Translations under genes and position numbers: made by a program
From: a virus
Reading direction: 5' to 3' (one strand)
DNA: 21,427 nucleotides
Virus record (IMG/VR): IMGVR_UViG_3300017757_000196
Coordinates: 1-21,427 of that record
Part shown: positions 2,238 to 13,007 of the stretch, piece after piece
Layout: every line of letters begins with the position of its first letter
How positions within the stretch are numbered: position 1 is the first letter of the stretch
Notes under the pieces: generated by a model
The model's database searches: none
Told to the model about the DNA's origin: nothing
What the model saw: the letters and a program-made list of their open reading frames with translations, nothing else

Positions 2238-3773
2238 TTATCCCACTCGTATAATTTTTGATTTCAGGGGTTTCTTGAAATTATACCCCATCGAGGAAAT
2301 CGTGCCACCTGTAAAGGTTGCAGCGGTGCTTGCCATCGTTAGTGCCAGCGCATCGGCTTTGTCGGGAGACTTGATGCCGCGTTTACGCATTGCCTCTTTT
2401 GCTTCAATCTTTATCTTGCCAGCACTTGTATAAGTATATTGCGGAGAGGTCAGTTCTGCAATCAATTCATCATCCTCTGGCAAACGACAATCTCTTTTTG
2501 TGAGCCAGTCTTTGATCGCAAACCACAACTCGGCGCGTAGATTTAAATAGTTTCTGCGACTTGCGGGCGATTCCGCAACATTGACACCGCGCACTGGCAT
2601 ACCCAACTCAGAAAGACGATCCACCACACCCGAACCCAGACCAATGACATCGACCAATATCTCTTGCGGTTTATTCATTGCGGTCGCAGAGTCATAAATA
2701 TTTTTGACCGCACCGCAAAGCTGCATCAAATCCATTGAGCGAAATGTTTTAATCTCAAATACCGTGTTGCCTTGACGAATACACAGCGCAGAATTATCGC
2801 CCCCGAAGCGGGCCACATCCAAACCCCACACAATCGCTTCAGATGCGGTTAATTCCACATCCCGATTAACCGCTGCTCTTGCCAACTCCAAAGGAATCAC
2901 AGTGTCGTCATCGGCTTTTGGAAACTCACCCATGACCTCGACTCTGGCAACGGTGGAATCCTCGCCGTATTGCTCAATCATTTTATGAAACAACGCCTGG
3001 TCTGTGCCTTCGACATCGCGTGAGTCGATCTGTTCCGTGTTCCAAAACGCTCGTTTTGAGTGAAACGCATCAAAGAATGGCCCCGTGTTGCGCCTTGGGT
3101 TTGAAAACGTCAGCCAAAAACGATTCTTTGTGGGTTCTGTGAAAAAGCCCTCAGACACGGAATAAATCGGTGCGGGAATACCGCTTGCCTCATCCATAAT
3201 CAGTAAGATACCCAAGGTACTGTGCAGCCCCGCATATGCATCGGGGTTCTCTTCTGACCACAAAGAAGCCATTGCATAGTAATAGCCGCAATCGATGTTT
3301 AGGTCTCTGACTAATAATTCTTCAAACCATGCTTGCGGTCTTAATGTGGTCGCTGTCTTTGCGAACCAATGACCGTTGATGGATAGGGTGAGCCACTTGC
3401 CCAGCTCTGCCCATGTTCTCGATCTAAGCTGTTGTTCTGTGTTGGCAGATACAACGACTGTGCCACCAAGGCGCGTGGATAAAAACCAAAGAATGATCCA
3501 AGCGACCAAAGCCGACTTGCCAATGCCACGACCAGAGGCAACCGCGAGTCTAAACATCTCAGGCAGATCGATTGTTTCGTTCTTGCGAATGTGATTGCCA
3601 ATGTCTCGTAAAATTTTTTCTTGCCACTTACGCGGGCCAGTGAAGTCCTCAAGGGGGGTGTTTTCGATGCCCCAAGGGAAGGCATAACGCACAAAGTTTA
3701 AAGGCGAATCCTTTATGGTGAGTGACCATATATCGGTCATCAGTTCTTCTTCTTGTTTAGGGGTGTATTTCAT
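2238..3773 (-). CDS. terL: Terminase large subunit (packaging ATPase/nuclease)
   Basis: The motor that pumps phage DNA into the prohead and cuts the concatemer. Counting from ATG 3773 (511 aa), the ATPase domain shows Walker A GRGIGKS at 81-87, Walker B LLIMDE at 190-195 and the coupling motif TFSNP at 222-226. The RNase H-like nuclease domain shows Asp319 in LDVARFGGD, Asp375 in LVDVIGLG, and Asp471/Asp474 in SPDKADAL. All key residues appear intact. An in-frame TTG at 3785 would add four residues; I prefer the ATG, though neither has a strong ribosome site. The start overlaps the end of the radical SAM gene by 17 nt, so the two are probably translated together. Confidence 0.96.
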   Translation of the reverse strand: MKYTPKQEEELMTDIWSLTIKDSPLNFVRYAFPWGIENTPLEDFTGPRKWQEKILRDIGNHIRKNETIDLPEMFRLAVASGRGIGKSALVAWIILWFLSTRLGGTVVVSANTEQQLRSRTWAELGKWLTLSINGHWFAKTATTLRPQAWFEELLVRDLNIDCGYYYAMASLWSEENPDAYAGLHSTLGILLIMDEASGIPAPIYSVSEGFFTEPTKNRFWLTFSNPRRNTGPFFDAFHSKRAFWNTEQIDSRDVEGTDQALFHKMIEQYGEDSTVARVEVMGEFPKADDDTVIPLELARAAVNRDVELTASEAIVWGLDVARFGGDNSALCIRQGNTVFEIKTFRSMDLMQLCGAVKNIYDSATAMNKPQEILVDVIGLGSGVVDRLSELGMPVRGVNVAESPASRRNYLNLRAELWFAIKDWLTKRDCRLPEDDELIAELTSPQYTYTSAGKIKIEAKEAMRKRGIKSPDKADALALTMASTAATFTGGTISSMGYNFKKPLKSKIIRVG

Positions 3774-4746
3774 TGAATATATCAACCTGTCTTGTGTCTT
3801 TTTTATAAAACTTGTTTCTGTTCACTTTCGAATAATCATCCCAAGGTATAAATTGGTAATGCCTCATAATGACCCAACGCTGAAATTTTTTTAGTTCTGT
3901 GCTGTTGTTGTTATAAACCATAGGGTAGGGCATACAACCAAGGTCAATAAGCGTGTTAAAACGATGAAATATGTCATCCCATGTCTCGTTCTTTTTAAAA
4001 CCAATCAACATATAAACCATTAAGTGACCCATTGGTATTCCGTTTTTGGCTAGTTTCTCAGCACCTTTTGTAAATATTTTTTCATCGCCTAAGTTATCCC
4101 ATGCTGTGTAGAGCCTTCTGGTTTTGAATTTCGCATCGTAATATTTAATATTTGGCAGTGTCTCAGCAGCACGGTCATCAACCAGTCTTATATTAATGCC
4201 TTGGTTAAAACTGACCTTATAGTTGCCATCTATGATTTGATTGGCTTTTTCTTCCCAATCGGGTTGACCAAAGAAATCATTGTCCAATAACAATAAATTT
4301 TTTGGGTGTGGATCGCCGCGATAGATTTCATCGATCCAATTACTATGCACATTTTTACCTTCTTTTTTGCTTACGACACAAAATTTACATTTCAAACGAC
4401 ATCCTCTTTGTGAGAAACCGATGCTGTGTTCAAAATCAGGATAGATTTCGTAATCGTAATTTTCATAAACAGACTTGCCGATAATTTGCTCTATTGTCAC
4501 GCCGTTCTCGAAGCCTGTGCCGCCTACAATAGCATTGGGAAAGTTTTGCAAAAATTTTTGTTGCTTCTTCTCGCTGAACGTAAAAATAGAAGAACCATAA
4601 ACTCGGTCATATTTAGCCTCAAACATATCGGGCGCGGATCGTTTAGTAAAGTAAACATCATCGCCTTTCTGTTTATGCCAGTGTGATAGCTTCATCAGTG
4701 CCAAATTGGGTATCTTGCCGTCTAAATGTGTAATCCTTACTTTCAT
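3757..4746 (-). CDS. Radical SAM protein, function unknown
   Basis: A 329-residue protein with the radical SAM cluster-binding motif C116-x3-C120-x2-C123 in RGCRLKCKFC, which binds a [4Fe-4S] cluster and S-adenosylmethionine to make a radical. The first ~100 residues (MKVRITHLDG, PNLALMKLS, then IVGGTGFEN near 73) resemble the Rossmann-like domain that precedes the radical SAM core in cobalamin-domain families, but I see no DxHxxG cobalamin motif. After the core come LLLLDNDFFG and a long barrel-like region; the C-terminus has no obvious extra cluster-binding cysteines. The gene sits inside the packaging operon just before terL, with overlaps on both sides. Substrate unknown: modification of DNA, a virion protein or a host RNA are all open. 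The superfamily call is firm, the role is not. Confidence 0.85.
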   Translation of the reverse strand: MKVRITHLDGKIPNLALMKLSHWHKQKGDDVYFTKRSAPDMFEAKYDRVYGSSIFTFSEKKQQKFLQNFPNAIVGGTGFENGVTIEQIIGKSVYENYDYEIYPDFEHSIGFSQRGCRLKCKFCVVSKKEGKNVHSNWIDEIYRGDPHPKNLLLLDNDFFGQPDWEEKANQIIDGNYKVSFNQGINIRLVDDRAAETLPNIKYYDAKFKTRRLYTAWDNLGDEKIFTKGAEKLAKNGIPMGHLMVYMLIGFKKNETWDDIFHRFNTLIDLGCMPYPMVYNNNSTELKKFQRWVIMRHYQFIPWDDYSKVNRNKFYKKDTRQVDIFNEIHP

Positions 4747-7005: not shown

Positions 7006-8808
7006 CTAAAATTCTGGCTCATCGTCATATAACATAAGGCTTTTAGCCGTTTTTGCATCTTTGTTGATGGTTGTGCTACTCACACCCAATTCTTTCGATA
7101 TTTGCCGATTAGACAGCCCCTCACGTTTCATTTTGGCAACTATTTCGATCCTTGATTCTCGATCCGTTTTCTCTTTTATGAGCAATCCATTGCCGTATCG
7201 CCAGTTGATATCTGCCACATCATATCCGTATATGTGACGACCTTTTTCAAACCGCCAGATGAAATTGGTCTCATAATCAGCTGTGTCTATCCCCAATAAA
7301 CCATCATCCGAGTCCTCATCTTCTTTGACAGTAATCGAGATCACGCCATCTAAGAGTATTTCTTTACTCATTGAGCCGAGTTGTTTCCCCGATTTACCCG
7401 CATGATGCAGCATCCAAACCACTCGGTTCTCAGCTCTCATTTTGAGGAGTAGGGGATTAATAGTCGCCACAAACTCTTCTGCCGAGTTGTTGTCTTCGAA
7501 GCTAGTAAGGTTCAGAAGGTTGTCCCAGCAAATCCAGGTTGGTTGTACACGCTCTATCAAGTCCAAATACCATTCTCGACCCTCTGGCGTATTGAGTGGT
7601 GCCAACCCTTCGGGCTGATCGTAATGGCTCACAATGGTAAAATTTTCATTGACTCGTTTCAACAGCTCATCTCTCTGCGGTTCACCCGCAAAGATACCTG
7701 TTGTCATACTTTTTAGCCTTGTCTGGATACTGCGAGGGTTCATCTCTGCATCGATTAGCAAAACCTTTTGAGGCTCTGAAACATGATAATGAGCAAAGTC
7801 CACTCCCGCAGACAGAGCAATAGCCATGTATTGGCTCACGATACTCTTCCCCGATCCTGGTGGCCCAAACAGCATCCACAGATCGCCATGATGCACGAGC
7901 TTGTTGTTGTCATCACCGATCATCAGTGTCATCTCAGGGTATTCATAGTCCTTAAAGTCGCCGTATTTCTGATACACAACCCGTTTGGCTGCTTCATACT
8001 CGCGCGCATCTGCCAACTCAATCACATTGATCGGCTCCTCGCGCTCAAACGCATCCATGAGGTCGTCTTTGGGCTGGAAGTGTTCAGGCGGTTCAATAAT
8101 GACCGTGTCAATGCTGTGCGATTGCAGCTCATCTTTGATCGACTTGGCAACCTCAAAACCCGCCTCATCGTTATCGGGCCATATGATCGCTTTGGGGAAG
8201 CGTTTAAGCTGTGACCAATCTTGATTCTTCCAACTGCCCGTGCCGCCGTGCCATGTGACCACAATGCCCTCGTACAATGCTCGTGCGCCCAAATGTGCAT
8301 TTTCACCCTCTACAATCAAACAGGGCAAACGCTGATCGCCCTCGCTTGAGATCAGCAGTGGAAGTTGCCCCTTGGGGCGTTTCATTTGCCATGTGCCATC
8401 GCTTAATCGACTGAACGGTCGTATGACCTTGTTTGGAAACCGCATGACACAGAATGTGTCTGAATAACGAGACACCAACTCGGCTTTCTTCGCCATGTTG
8501 CGCATCTCGTCATTGCTGTAACTCTTTACGGGCTTTTCTGCTTGTGCTGTAACCGATACGGGTTGCAAATCCTCGATGCCCATCGACCTTAAAAACTGGC
8601 TTACATCCTCGCCGTGGTATTTCTTAATAAAGCTGATCATGCCACCGCCTTCATCGGCTTCGTGGTCAAACCAAGTGCCTTTGTTGAGATCGACCGACAA
8701 GCTGCCCTTGTTGCCGTATCTCAACTCATATGCACTGCTGAGTCGCTTGTTCTCCTCGCCCAGTAGGGCCAGAGCGATCTCTTTGCTGTGTTGACTGATT
8801 TCAATCAT
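7006..8808 (-). CDS. Primase-helicase (Toprim plus RecA-fold ATPase, C-terminal HTH)
   Basis: A 600-residue replication protein. Residues 44-55 (GTWFDHEADEGG) match the N-terminal region of bifunctional phage primases. A Toprim domain follows, with LIVEGE at 164-169 and WPDNDEAG at 210-217 providing the acidic metal-binding residues. A RepA/DnaB-like RecA-fold ATPase has Walker A GPPGSGKS at 315-322, Walker B VLLIDAE at 349-355 and a further strand ICWDNLLNL at 426-434. Residues ~551-587 form a helix-turn-helix (EGLSNRQISKELGVSSTTIN), unusual for such enzymes and suggesting site-specific DNA binding, perhaps to the iterons just downstream of the gene. The start has a strong AGGAG site that a pseudoknot may occlude. 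No DNA polymerase gene is visible here, so host polymerase or a gene outside the window would be needed. Confidence 0.9.
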   Translation of the reverse strand: MIEISQHSKEIALALLGEENKRLSSAYELRYGNKGSLSVDLNKGTWFDHEADEGGGMISFIKKYHGEDVSQFLRSMGIEDLQPVSVTAQAEKPVKSYSNDEMRNMAKKAELVSRYSDTFCVMRFPNKVIRPFSRLSDGTWQMKRPKGQLPLLISSEGDQRLPCLIVEGENAHLGARALYEGIVVTWHGGTGSWKNQDWSQLKRFPKAIIWPDNDEAGFEVAKSIKDELQSHSIDTVIIEPPEHFQPKDDLMDAFEREEPINVIELADAREYEAAKRVVYQKYGDFKDYEYPEMTLMIGDDNNKLVHHGDLWMLFGPPGSGKSIVSQYMAIALSAGVDFAHYHVSEPQKVLLIDAEMNPRSIQTRLKSMTTGIFAGEPQRDELLKRVNENFTIVSHYDQPEGLAPLNTPEGREWYLDLIERVQPTWICWDNLLNLTSFEDNNSAEEFVATINPLLLKMRAENRVVWMLHHAGKSGKQLGSMSKEILLDGVISITVKEDEDSDDGLLGIDTADYETNFIWRFEKGRHIYGYDVADINWRYGNGLLIKEKTDRESRIEIVAKMKREGLSNRQISKELGVSSTTINKDAKTAKSLMLYDDEPEF

Positions 8809-8812
8809 GTTC

Positions 8813-8860
8813 TCTCCTATAGGTCTAGGGTGGGAAGATAGGAGAACAAACCCACCCTAG
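8813..8860 (-). promoter_or_regulatory. Candidate RNA pseudoknot covering the primase-helicase RBS
   Basis: In the minus-strand mRNA, CTAGGGTGGG (8860-8851) pairs perfectly with CCCACCCTAG (8834-8825), a 10-bp stem with a 16-nt loop. The loop holds TCTCCTAT (8845-8838), an exact 8-nt complement of ATAGGAGA (8820-8813), which is the Shine-Dalgarno region of the gene starting at 8808. The pairing order is stem 1, loop, stem 1', RBS, an H-type pseudoknot that would hide the RBS. A CACCC at 8870-8866 could instead pair with GGGTG of stem 1 (8857-8853), offering an alternative fold. The upstream gene encodes the SSB-like protein, a natural ligand by analogy with T4 gp32 and its leader pseudoknot. 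Confidence 0.6.
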
Positions 8861-8871
8861 CCATTGGGTGA

Positions 8872-8896
8872 CGATATTACTCAGAAAGGAATATCG
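8872..8896 (-). other. Hairpin spanning the SSB-like stop codon
   Basis: CGATATT and AATATCG form a 7-bp inverted repeat with an 11-nt loop that contains the stop codon. No T-run follows in the transcribed direction, so it is not a standard terminator. It may help insulate the downstream RNA structure or be incidental. Confidence 0.3.
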
Positions 8897-9471
8897 CTGT
8901 CGTCACTTGCTGGGTTTTCATCTGCCACTGGCTCATCAAAGCTAGGCTCCTCATAAGCACCGTTGAGTTCATTCTTCTCGAACTCATCCGACTCGACCCA
9001 TTTGACCAACTTAAACTGAGGCACTCGTGTATTGCCTTTGCCTATTTTGATCGCCTCTGAACCCGTGTATTCGATCACGGGAAACTTGCCCACGTTCTCT
9101 CCTTGTTGGGCATGAATCTCGGTGTAGGCGTTCTCAAAACCAATGTTTGATCCAGTGGTTGTGGTTGACCATGTTCTTAGTCCTTCCTCTTGGATAAACA
9201 TGTCCACTGAGAAACCACGTTTGAAGTTCATCTTCTCTTCTTCCGTGTCACCTGGTCGAATCGCTCTTTTTCCAAGAGCTTCATCAAACACCCATTCAGG
9301 GGCTTCTCCTTTTGTGATTTTGCCCCATCCTGTTTTCACAGAACTTGGGTTCAAGATAAAGTATTTCAAATCCACTTCATCTTCTTTGCCGACAAACCAT
9401 CCATTAGTAGACGGCATATATCGGATGAACAGCTTGTCATCTGCTGCATCGTTTAGTCCTAATAAGCTCAT
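8881..9471 (-). CDS. Single-stranded DNA-binding protein-like
   Basis: A 196-residue protein whose last ~30 residues are acidic and end in SDDSDIPF, the signature C-terminal tip by which SSB proteins recruit partners. The body (TGWGKITKGEAPEWVFDEALG at ~47-67, KRGFSVDMFIQ near 84, and GKGNTRVPQFKLVKWVES near 145) matches, as I recall it, a phage family annotated as ssDNA-binding, but it lacks an OB-fold signature I could verify by eye. The ATG at 9471 has a good AAGGAG site. It is followed by a long hairpin leader and the primase-helicase gene, so it belongs to the replication operon. The C-terminal tip is the strongest evidence. Confidence 0.75.
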   Translation of the reverse strand: MSLLGLNDAADDKLFIRYMPSTNGWFVGKEDEVDLKYFILNPSSVKTGWGKITKGEAPEWVFDEALGKRAIRPGDTEEEKMNFKRGFSVDMFIQEEGLRTWSTTTTGSNIGFENAYTEIHAQQGENVGKFPVIEYTGSEAIKIGKGNTRVPQFKLVKWVESDEFEKNELNGAYEEPSFDEPVADENPASDDSDIPF

Positions 9472-9481
9472 ATTCTTCTCC

Positions 9482-9568
9482 TTATAAATTATTAGTGATT
9501 AAAATTACGATGGCCCCCAAAAATAGAGCGACCACCACCCGTTTAAAATCTTCAAACTTAGGATTCAT
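9482..9568 (-). CDS. Putative 28-residue single-span membrane peptide
   Basis: A very short frame between the methyltransferase and SSB-like genes. It starts inside the last codons of the methyltransferase (ATG 9568) and ends at TAA 9482-9484, where the SSB gene's ribosome site begins. The peptide begins MNPKFEDFKR and continues with a hydrophobic run, VVVALFLGAIVILI, long enough for a membrane helix, then TNNL. The coupled start and the exact fit of the gap favour coding, but the start lacks a good ribosome site. Function unknown. Confidence 0.35.
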   Translation of the reverse strand: MNPKFEDFKRVVVALFLGAIVILITNNL

Positions 9569-10307
9569 TCTTTTTATACACCAACAGAGACTCATGCACT
9601 CTGACCGAATAACCAAGCCTCTTTGCTTGTGGCAGCATAATTTTTATTTTGCTGACTTTTTTTCTGCTCACGACAACTTGATCAAAAAGTATTGCGCCAA
9701 GCTCTTCAAATATTTTTCTTGTAACAAACTCTAAATCATAAAAAACATGGTTTTTTCTCCACTCGCCGACCATTACGCAGTATGTTGAACCTTTGTCTGC
9801 TTTTTTATAACAGCGATCCCAAATTTGTTTGTATTCTTTTTTGAACTCTTCCCATGTTTTTGCTTGGTCGATTCCTTGCCCATCGTATTTTTCTAAATTC
9901 CAATATGGTGGGCAAGTCAACAATCCATCATGTTTCGGAATTTCATCATGGAGACTGTTAGCGTGTATGTTTGCAAACCCCTTGTTTTTAGCTGAGATAA
10001 TTGCTTCTTCAGAAGTATCGAAACCGATATAATTTTTTTGATATTGCATTGCTTTTTCTGCTCTCTCGCCCCAACCAGCAAAAGGATCAAAAATATTTTC
10101 TGAATCTCTTAAATAATATTCATAACAAATATCAGAAATTTCTTCTGGAAACGGACTAAACGCAGATCGTGAGCTATTGCTTTCATGGCTTATTTCTTGC
10201 CTTTTTTTCTGAGCAGATATATCTAAAACGGAGACAGGCATAATCTTTAACTGCCCTTCCTTGTTTGGCTTTAGTTTTTCTTCATTAAAAAAATCTTTTT
10301 GATTCAT
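9558..10307 (-). CDS. DNA methyltransferase (N6-adenine/N4-cytosine type)
   Basis: A 249-residue SAM-dependent DNA methyltransferase. Motif I is DPFAGWGER at residues 74-82, the SAM-binding loop, followed by the acidic strand end IGFD near 94-97. Motif IV is TCPPYW at 131-136, a PPY-type catalytic motif with Cys replacing the more common Asp/Asn/Ser before PPY. A motif X-like SPFPEEI precedes motif I. The order X-I-IV and the small size suggest a stand-alone amino-methyltransferase with a short target-recognition part. It may protect phage DNA from host restriction or mark DNA for replication or packaging. The ATG at 10307 shares one base with the upstream stop (TGATG); an in-frame TTG at 10310 is less likely. 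Confidence 0.85.
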   Translation of the reverse strand: MNQKDFFNEEKLKPNKEGQLKIMPVSVLDISAQKKRQEISHESNSSRSAFSPFPEEISDICYEYYLRDSENIFDPFAGWGERAEKAMQYQKNYIGFDTSEEAIISAKNKGFANIHANSLHDEIPKHDGLLTCPPYWNLEKYDGQGIDQAKTWEEFKKEYKQIWDRCYKKADKGSTYCVMVGEWRKNHVFYDLEFVTRKIFEELGAILFDQVVVSRKKVSKIKIMLPQAKRLGYSVRVHESLLVYKKNES

Positions 10308-11102: not shown

Positions 11103-11214
11103 AATTTACAACTTAAAAAGAATAGACCTATGGTATTTGCAATTTCTATATATGTCTATATATTAGATATAAATAGAACAATACTTATACACAAAAAATA
11201 CATAGGAGAACGAA
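11103..11214 (+). promoter_or_regulatory. Divergent control region with candidate early promoter
   Basis: An AT-rich gap between the leftward regulator and the rightward early genes. A plausible sigma70 promoter for the plus strand is TTGCAA at 11137-11142 and TATATT at 11159-11164, 16-bp spacer. Between and over these elements lie two tandem copies of TCTATATAT at 11145-11153 and 11155-11163, 10 bp apart, a layout suited to a ribbon-helix-helix operator. The -35 overlaps a motif (ACCATAGG family) also found at 5731 and 13570. TTATACACA at 11185-11193 matches the DnaA box consensus. The first early gene has ATAGGAGAAC at 11202-11211. Confidence 0.55.
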
Positions 11215-11409
11215 ATGGATAGAGCAACCAAAAAACTATATTACAAAGGCAAAGCCCTTCTTGATGCCCTAGTTAAATATGATCACACAACAGGATCATA
11301 TGATGACTATGAGGAGATCATTCTTTCAGCTGGTATTAAATGGGATGATTTCAACGAGGCCAGGAATCAATACGAGCAAGATTTAAAAACGTCTGTGATA
11401 CCTGATTAA
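11215..11409 (+). CDS. Hypothetical 64-residue early protein
   Basis: First gene of the rightward operon, with a strong ATAGGAGAAC ribosome site identical to that of the next two genes. The product is acidic and probably all-helical (KKLYYKGKALLDALVKYD, then YDDYEEIILSAGIKWDDF). No known family recognised. Its place between the control region and the integrase makes an excisionase or small regulatory role possible, but there is no visible helix-turn-helix and I make no claim. Confidence 0.75.
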   Translation: MDRATKKLYYKGKALLDALVKYDHTTGSYDDYEEIILSAGIKWDDFNEARNQYEQDLKTSVIPD

Positions 11410-11429
11410 GTTTTATATAGGAGAACGAA

Positions 11430-12278
11430 ATGGAAACCCTTAACAATGCTTTTGATCTTTATGTGTGCGACCTCAATCGCCGAGAGAAGAAAACTGTATC
11501 TTCCATGCAACGAATATGGTCGAGACACATCAAAGACACATTGGGCAAGAAGAACATCAAACGCATCAAGCGAATGGATGTGGTCGATTTATTCTACGAC
11601 ATCAGCAAAAGTGGAAAGGGCATTGCCAACCGTTGCATCGGCATTATGAGTTGCACCTTTGACATTGCCATGCGATACGAAATGGTCGAGCAGAACCCAT
11701 GCAAGGGCATCAAGAGACACCCTGACATTAAACGCAAAAGATATTGCACCCAAGACGAGCTGAAACGCATTTTCAGTGCCTTAGAAACCGAGAAACAAAA
11801 CCCACGCAACCGAGCATCGGCACAGTTCATTGAATTGTTGATCTGGACAGGTTGCAGAAAGGGTGAGCTGGCATCTGCCACATGGAATGATTTGCACGGC
11901 AATCACATCATCCTTGAGCAACACAAGAGCGATGACCACGATGGCCCTAGAGTGATTCATTTGAACGATCAAGCCATGGCAGTCATCAATTCATTGCAAC
12001 GCACAGGCACGAAATTACTGCCTGTAAACAACCCGAAAGGACTGTGGAAGAAGATCAAAGCACAAGCCTCGATTGACGATTTGCGACTGCACGATCTGAG
12101 ACACACGTTTGCGACACAAGGATTGCAAGCGAATTTGACATTGCCTGAGATCGGCAACTTGCTCGGACACAAAAACCCAATGACCACGATGCGATATGCA
12201 CACGTCATGGATGAAACCGCCAAAGAAAATGTGAACGATATTGGCAACAAGATATTCAATTCAATACAATCATCATAG
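11430..12278 (+). CDS. int: Tyrosine recombinase (phage integrase)
   Basis: A 282-residue integrase for site-specific insertion into the host chromosome. The N-terminal ~100 residues form a SAM-like core-binding domain. The catalytic domain shows all key residues: Arg143 in WTGCRKGELA, a likely beta-hairpin Lys166 in LEQHKSDDH, His221 and Arg224 in LHDLRHTFATQ, His247 in LLGHKNP and the nucleophile Tyr256 in MRYAHV. The length lacks the extra arm-binding domain of lambda Int, so it belongs to the shorter P4/XerD-like group. The ribosome site is ATAGGAGAAC at 11417-11426. I could not identify an attachment site with a tRNA-like core in the window. Confidence 0.95.
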   Translation: METLNNAFDLYVCDLNRREKKTVSSMQRIWSRHIKDTLGKKNIKRIKRMDVVDLFYDISKSGKGIANRCIGIMSCTFDIAMRYEMVEQNPCKGIKRHPDIKRKRYCTQDELKRIFSALETEKQNPRNRASAQFIELLIWTGCRKGELASATWNDLHGNHIILEQHKSDDHDGPRVIHLNDQAMAVINSLQRTGTKLLPVNNPKGLWKKIKAQASIDDLRLHDLRHTFATQGLQANLTLPEIGNLLGHKNPMTTMRYAHVMDETAKENVNDIGNKIFNSIQSS

Positions 12279-12287
12279 GAGAACAAT

Positions 12288-13007
12288 ATGACAAAAGATG
12301 ATTTCGCAGATGTCGGGAAGGTGAAAGTAGGGCGCACATCACGGTTCGTGACTTACTACATCAGTGACGATGACATCGAAGAGAAACGCATCCAGCTCAA
12401 GGAAGCGACCGATCCACCCCTTCGTGATAAGGGCAAGACACGACACATATTAAAGGAATACATCGAAGAGAAATCGAGGAATCCTTATCACATGCCAAAA
12501 CTCGAATTGGCAATCAAATATGCAGTCAAAAACAAAGCCAACATATTGAGTCCAAAGCTCGGTTCCAGGATCAACAACTTAAAGTTTGTGAGCCTGATGT
12601 TAGAGGCATACAACAAGTATGGCCTGAAATTTGCAGCACTCGACATTTGGGGCATCCATTGGATTCCGATGGACATGATGGCAAACATCGTGGCACAGAA
12701 TCGCAAAAAGATTTCTCGCAACACAAAAAAGGCAATGGCAAAGCTGAAAGCCAAAGGCATGAAGTTTGGCAATCCAAACATCAAGGAAGCCACCAAAAAA
12801 GCCTCGGAAGATCACACCAGACGAGCCAATGACTTTGCGGTCACGATGCGCCCTGTGGTGAAGAAGATTCAAAAGGGTGGGGCAAACACCTATCAGGACA
12901 TTGCCAATCAGCTTAACGGCGATGGGGTGAAGTCACGCTATGGGAGAACCTGGCATCCAAGCAATGTCAGAAACTTAGTTTTGAAGATAGAAGAATTAAA
13001 AAAATAA
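12288..13007 (+). CDS. Serine-recombinase-like protein, probably catalytically inactive
   Basis: A 239-residue protein that lines up by eye with small serine recombinases along most of its length. FVTYYISDDDIE near residues 20-31 corresponds to the catalytic YxRVSxxxQ segment. ILSPKLGSRINNLKFV (86-101) corresponds to the LDRLxRN segment. ISRNTKKAMAKLKAKGMKFG (142-161) is the conserved E-helix end, and the C-terminus (TYQDIANQLNGDGV at ~201, then GRTWHPSNVRNLV) is the recombinase DNA-binding helix-turn-helix. The alignment keeps a serine (Ser26) but puts Tyr at the usual catalytic Arg before it and Asn97 at another catalytic Arg, so strand cleavage is unlikely. It may act as a DNA-binding regulator or accessory factor for the integrase. 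Ribosome site ATAGGAGAAC overlaps the integrase stop. Confidence 0.65.
   Translation: MTKDDFADVGKVKVGRTSRFVTYYISDDDIEEKRIQLKEATDPPLRDKGKTRHILKEYIEEKSRNPYHMPKLELAIKYAVKNKANILSPKLGSRINNLKFVSLMLEAYNKYGLKFAALDIWGIHWIPMDMMANIVAQNRKKISRNTKKAMAKLKAKGMKFGNPNIKEATKKASEDHTRRANDFAVTMRPVVKKIQKGGANTYQDIANQLNGDGVKSRYGRTWHPSNVRNLVLKIEELKK

Follow-up and report, generated by a model that had tools for sequence, protein, structure and literature searches.

The sequence analysed is a 21.4-kb virus record (IMG/VR IMGVR_UViG_3300017757_000196, positions 1 to 21,427), hereafter the window, i.e., the whole stretch of 21,427 nt, and its source is an uncultured temperate phage. Its leftward genes encode a RusA-like resolvase, a methyltransferase-like protein, an SSB-like protein, a primase-helicase, the terminase and the portal, and a radical SAM domain protein gene (3757-4746, minus strand; PHROG 9298, E 4.8e-56) adjoins the terminase gene. 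Rightward genes follow from 11,215 on, a phage integrase among them. The hairpin found between the SSB-like gene (ssb) and the primase-helicase gene thus sits in the replication/packaging transcript, and the integrase operon is transcribed in the opposite direction.

The SSB-like protein, whose acidic tail ends in DSDIPF, had no Pfam or PHROG match, and a protein search with it in phage records gave no match. Its structural model (pLDDT 78) superposed on RB69 gp32 with Z 4.9 and an rmsd of 3.6 over 99 aligned residues, values below the level that marks relatedness, and a Foldseek search with the model returned no clear fold match (best E 0.35), which says nothing on novelty. The label 'SSB-like' for this 196-aa protein is reasonable rather than proven. 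The family has dozens of diverse members in IMG/VR, with an acidic tail ending in IPF/PLF and a predicted beta-rich fold; it may represent a phage SSB family not described before.

Read leftward, the junction consists of the TGA stop codon of ssb (ending at 8881), GTAATATCGTCACCCAATGG, the 5' arm of a stem (stem 1), a loop, the 3' arm, ACCT, the primase Shine-Dalgarno (SD) region ATAGGAGA, GAAC and the primase ATG at 8808-8806 (Table 1). Part of the loop, TCTCCTAT, is the exact reverse complement of ATAGGAGA, giving a potential stem 2. From these features a sequence-only reading had proposed an H-type pseudoknot that hides the primase ribosome-binding site (RBS), and its coordinates for the stem, loop, loop complement, SD and CACCC all proved exact when the sequence was re-read. 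Two features of the predicted folds are absent from that reading: the stem is extended past a bulged A, and a UCUCCU hexaloop closed by a mini-stem of 2-3 bp forms inside the loop. The combination of a perfect 10-bp stem and a loop with an 8-nt complement within 24 nt downstream was found once in the window and in 0/60 dinucleotide shuffles. When the loop alone was shuffled, 0.6% of loops reached an 8-nt match to the primase leader; such matches are not so rare by chance because the loop is pyrimidine-rich and the SD purine-rich. The plus-strand loop (ATAGGAGAACAAA) was considered as an RBS and rejected, there being no start codon at a usable distance in the window.

Table 1. Features of the ssb/primase junction and of the rightward ribosome-binding sites in the window
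Feature	Position	Strand	Evidence or remark
Primase-helicase gene, 600 aa	7006..8808	-	PHROG 239, E 1.3e-19; Pfam AAA_25 and Toprim_2
SSB-like gene, 196 aa, acidic tail ending DSDIPF	8881..9471	-	Model with weak matches to OB-type ssDNA-binding proteins
Stem 1 hairpin: arms CTAGGGTGGG (8860-8851) and CCCACCCTAG (8834-8825), 10/10 pairs; 16-nt loop TTTGTTCTCCTATCTT (8850-8835)	8825..8860	-	Sequence, paired changes, terminator position in distant relatives
Extended stem: GG (8862-8861) with CC (8823-8822) past bulged A 8824	8822..8862	-	MFE folds
Loop core GTTCTCCTA, anti-Shine-Dalgarno sequence	8839..8847	-	Invariant in all clade A junctions
Stem 2 5' strand TCTCCTAT of the proposed pseudoknot	8838..8845	-	8 bp to 8820-8813
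Primase SD region ATAGGAGA, stem 2 3' strand	8813..8820	-	Sequence; becomes TTAGGAAT in the sister subclade
CACCC, possible competitor for the stem 1 5' arm	8866..8870	-	CAAAC in the sister subclade
RBS ATAGGAGAACGAA of ORF 11215-11409	11202..11214	+	Complementary to the hairpin loop over 10 Watson-Crick pairs (13 if one G-U is counted)
RBS ATAGGAGAACGAA of the integrase gene 11430-12278	11417..11429	+	10 Watson-Crick pairs, 13 with one G-U, to the loop
RBS ATAGGAGAACAAT of ORF 12288-13007 (weak recombinase/HTH match)	12275..12287	+	12 Watson-Crick pairs to the loop

Relatives were gathered as about 60 loci from SSB and primase searches, and their junctions were read. The window subclade (L002-L005 and L007) shares the same hairpin, loop core and SD, while its sister subclade (L006, L136-L139 and L207), with SSBs 65-73% identical, has a related hairpin and an unchanged loop core; the two together are clade A, and the SSBs of more distant relatives are mostly 30-49% identical. 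The SSB tree is compatible with a single origin of the clade A element at a support of only 64/63; a first tree, which included the long-branch row L165, did not recover clade A. A first version of the element search pattern was too loose (over 100 matches, mostly unrelated), and with the stricter pattern every occurrence of the element was at an ssb junction, the remaining matches being unrelated sequence. No second copy of the hairpin was found in clade A genomes. Searches with the junction itself gave no Rfam family match at gathering scores and no match by DNA similarity in phage records; a scan of genome contigs found no relative, and no matching phage system was found among the papers searched.

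The comparison of these junctions bore out stem 1, which is a real conserved RNA helix with paired changes. In L007 its arms read CTGAGGTGGG/CCCACCTCAG, i.e., two pairs are altered on both sides, and in the sister subclade there is an extra G-C pair and a T-A pair is replaced by C-G or G-U. Stem pairs were counted for each sequence by script, because MAFFT does not align the extra sister-subclade pair correctly. The likeness of stem 1 between the subclades is not one of recent identity, because four-fold sites of ssb differ between them by 0.64-0.66, which is near saturation. The GG and ACC of the extended stem are invariant throughout clade A, and so are the nine loop bases GTTCTCCTA; with neutral divergence at about 65%, the probability that nine sites stay unchanged would be about 0.35^9 = 8e-5. 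The loop core is under strong constraint.

In most of the distant relatives (L140-L150, L154, L163 and others) the ssb stop is followed, within tens of bases, by a G+C-rich hairpin and a direct T-run, i.e., an intrinsic terminator. Exceptions are L151, L155, L156 and L159, which have no such hairpin, and L211; the nearest outgroup, L209, is also an exception and has a hairpin plus TTGCTTTT. The clade A element resembles these terminators in its position after the ssb stop, its strand and its G+C-rich hairpin, but differs from them in its larger loop with a conserved anti-SD core and in having the next RBS immediately after the stem, and a U-tract after the hairpin is absent from every clade A junction, which has ACCTATAGG instead. 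From these junctions, the terminator was probably ancestral at this spot and the clade of the window lost its U-tract.

This history fits an explanation in which only the stem matters, as a degenerate terminator or as a stabiliser or processing barrier at the 3' end of the ssb mRNA, with no pairing role for the loop. The stem covaries, as such hairpins do, and genes inserted downstream of it are tolerated. Furthermore, the window has a weak terminator-like hairpin, TCACCC:GGGTGG (8871-8852, minus strand), with the T-rich tail GTTTGTTCTC, which is absent from the sister subclade and could act before the 3' arm of the main hairpin is transcribed. We consider this explanation possible, though on the unlikely side, since it has to do without a U-tract at any clade A junction and leaves nine invariant loop bases at near-saturated divergence unexplained. 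An inverted repeat between replication genes might also be a DNA-level element beside the primase gene, e.g., an origin, a priming hairpin or a protein site, with the RNA features incidental. This is very improbable: in the relatives just one side of the hairpin has a T-run, the 3' side with respect to the leftward transcript, which marks a transcription signal; the G-U stem pairs in L136 and L138 fit RNA; and the sign of the GC skew switches near 11 kb, together with the direction of the genes, and not at the hairpin.

Stem 2 fared differently from stem 1. The sequence-only reading had proposed to look for paired substitutions in both stems, and these occur in stem 1, but stem 2 has no paired change. 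In every member of the window subclade it consists of 8 bp, all Watson-Crick, and in the window the stem 2 duplex is predicted at -9.6 kcal/mol (about -13.7 kcal/mol without the initiation term, before penalties). With a primase leader that reads ATTAGGAATTTT, the sister subclade is down to the 5 bp of UCCUA/UAGGA in stem 2, a match reached by 23-24% of shuffled loops and so at chance level, and the loop:leader duplex falls from -11.5 to about -6 kcal/mol. A T-to-C change in the sister loop costs one pair of stem 2, uncompensated, and turns a G-U pair of the inner loop stem into G-C. The sequence-only reading had itself named the loss of complementarity in either stem, in phages that keep both genes, as evidence against the pseudoknot, and such a loss is largely what is found outside the window subclade.

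A pseudoknot that acts in cis without any protein ligand would place TCTCCTAT on the primase SD and keep translation of the primase-helicase below that of the SSB; it would replace, in the window subclade, the transcriptional step-down that the terminator gives in the relatives. The intact stem 2 of that subclade, its predicted stability and the result of the window shuffles all argue for such a fold, as does a loop:leader match that is present in the clade, with no notable counterpart in the relatives with terminators. The sister subclade, however, keeps the loop core with a stem 2 no better than chance, and the geometry may be tight: loop lengths read from the sequence would be 5, 3 and 4 nt, and 4 nt (ACCT) looks short for crossing the 10 bp of stem 1. 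Two of the four ACCT bases also pair in the extended stem, which competes with the pseudoknot and would have to open for it. In two lineages, moreover, the element does not stand next to the primase: a GNAT-like gene follows the element and its SD directly in L002/L004, and a Mom-like gene does so in L010/L139, each before the primase. Further on, behind another leader, the primase begins in both L010 and L012 (the L002 contig). We regard it as unlikely that a cis pseudoknot of this kind accounts for the element, although on the sequences one may form in the window subclade; of the earlier proposal, what stands is stem 1 and a constrained, anti-SD loop core, and what is not supported is the RBS-hiding fold as a function conserved in the clade. 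Pairing in cis alone does not explain the conservation of the loop. As to the inserted genes, both are of acetyltransferase type and lie exactly between the hairpin/SD and the primase (4394-5008 in L012, 372-860 in L010), and both places in L012 have the 14 bases with which the primase gene begins.

The further claim, that binding of the SSB-like protein or some other ligand to the pseudoknot couples primase translation to the ssDNA level, in the way that T4 gp32 controls its own message, has in its favour the adjacency of the two genes and the weak fold resemblance to RB69 gp32. That resemblance is below the level of relatedness, stem 2 is not conserved, and the CACCC that was to compete for one arm of stem 1, giving a switch between two folds, is CAAAC in the sister subclade. 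The T4/RB69 gene 32 operator precedes gene 32, depends on a tract rich in UUAAA and has a pseudoknot that is located upstream of the SD (PMC535899). The likeness is therefore limited to a predicted pseudoknot near the gene of a phage ssDNA-binding protein: the present element follows the ssb stop codon, involves the SD of another gene, which would lie inside the knot, and has only ACCTATAGGAGAGAAC between the stem and the ATG, with no UUAAA/UAAA repeats. The gp32 analogy thus does not carry over in layout, protein gating is hardly probable, and if a pseudoknot specific to the primase and gated by SSB exists at all, it is confined to the window subclade.

The best partners of the loop lie elsewhere. 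The rightward integrase operon has a stereotyped RBS, AGGAGAAC, to which the loop core is exactly complementary, and the window loop matches the rightward RBSs better than the adjoining primase SD. Among shuffled loops, a fraction of 3e-4 attain a run of 10 Watson-Crick pairs to these sites and 6e-5 a run of 12, without correction for the roughly 27 sites. Across the window subclade the loop is complementary to rightward RBSs over 10-12 Watson-Crick pairs, and in the sister subclade mostly over 8-9, its integrase RBSs over only 8 bp; once the cost of opening is included, the predicted net energies of interaction are -13.5 to -16.5 kcal/mol and -9 to -12 kcal/mol, respectively. The sister RBSs ACAGGAGAACAGA and AAAGGAGAACGAA differ in their flanks but keep AGGAGAAC, the exact complement of the loop sequence GTTCTCCT, so that GTTCTCCT:AGGAGAAC is retained, as a complementarity of sequence, in both subclades. 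Rightward RBSs rank best as loop targets in all clade A genomes examined except that of L007, where a site on the hairpin strand ranks slightly above them. In clade A, 22/22 AGGAGAAC RBSs with 2-7 nt spacing are on the strand opposite the hairpin, a count that includes many inherited copies and not independent cases; one AGGAGAAC site with a 1-nt spacer is on the hairpin strand in the genome of L007. Such RBSs have a density of 1.38 per 10 kb in clade A, against 0.23 in loci without the loop. When loops were swapped between subclades, the energies gave no clear native preference and no clean signal of coevolution.

The reading we favour, tentatively and at somewhat less than an even chance, is that the element is a terminator-derived anti-SD hairpin whose loop would block RBSs mainly in trans, with cis pairing also possible. 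It is an intercistronic hairpin on the leftward (lytic) mRNA, where most relatives have their post-ssb terminator, and it has a conserved anti-SD loop and no U-tract; this loop would most likely base-pair with RBSs and block their translation. Its best targets would be the AGGAGAAC sites on the rightward integrase message, to which it would bind in trans once the lytic mRNA is made, and in the window subclade the same loop could also reach the adjoining primase SD in cis. We infer that this pairing takes place in the cell and represses translation, that trans contacts prevail over cis ones and that the arrangement follows a lytic/lysogenic logic; the hairpin may be a small lytic/lysogenic switch rather than an SSB-sensing pseudoknot. 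That it silences the whole integrase operon, so that the lytic mRNA hairpin which replaced the ssb terminator shuts off the lysogeny proteins, is rather unlikely. Against action in trans, anti-SD matches come easily between a pyrimidine-rich loop and purine-rich SDs, and a hairpin inside a long mRNA would be an unusual trans regulator.

In the phage C4 RNA an unpaired segment is complementary to ribosome-binding regions and pairs with the SD (Rfam RF01695). The clade A element is likewise a phage-encoded structured RNA with an unpaired anti-RBS segment that could act on another message, but it is a single hairpin between ssb and primase, with its proposed targets in the opposite operon, and RF01695 was not among the matches at E up to 10 for 8600-9600. 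The C-rich hairpin loops of Staphylococcus aureus sRNAs are anti-SD loops with a similar UCUCCU/UCCC-type motif able to pair with SDs; the present element differs in being embedded between cistrons of a phage mRNA. In phages P1/P7 the C4 antisense RNA is a trans-acting repressor of Ant synthesis (PMC8546580), and preQ1-I riboswitches are SD-sequestering H-type pseudoknots (PMC10622847). The window subclade shares with the latter the order stem, loop, stem', SD and a loop that can pair with the SD in cis, but the element has a 10-bp first stem and a 4-nt crossing loop, its second stem is not conserved between subclades, and there is no Rfam match and no sign of a ligand pocket. By analogy, the element may work like C4 antisense RNA and, for the cis contact, like preQ1-type pseudoknots; membership in neither is claimed because no Rfam family matches.

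If pairing in trans is what the loop does, a single loop on the lytic mRNA would control unrelated lysogeny genes via a common RBS, a simple RNA regulon in uncultured temperate phages in which a terminator has turned into an antisense regulator. If only the cis contact is real, the element would be a subclade-specific means of keeping primase below SSB. In either case, the comparison shows how alignment with relatives can weaken the case for a two-stem pseudoknot that looks convincing in a single sequence.

Two smaller observations concern neighbouring signals. The rightward genes of clade A share a near-identical RBS, ATAGGAGAACGAAATG (11202-12287 in the window and 6184-8321 in L244, both plus strand), and in the genome of L007 seven rightward starts have an RBS of the ATAGGAGAACGAAATG type, before genes without evident mutual similarity. 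Among the relatives with terminators, the primase SD (GGGG) of L145 (5487-5550) and L140 (5493-5555) lies directly behind the terminator and could pair with the CCCC arm of the latter, which suggests another SD-hiding fold.
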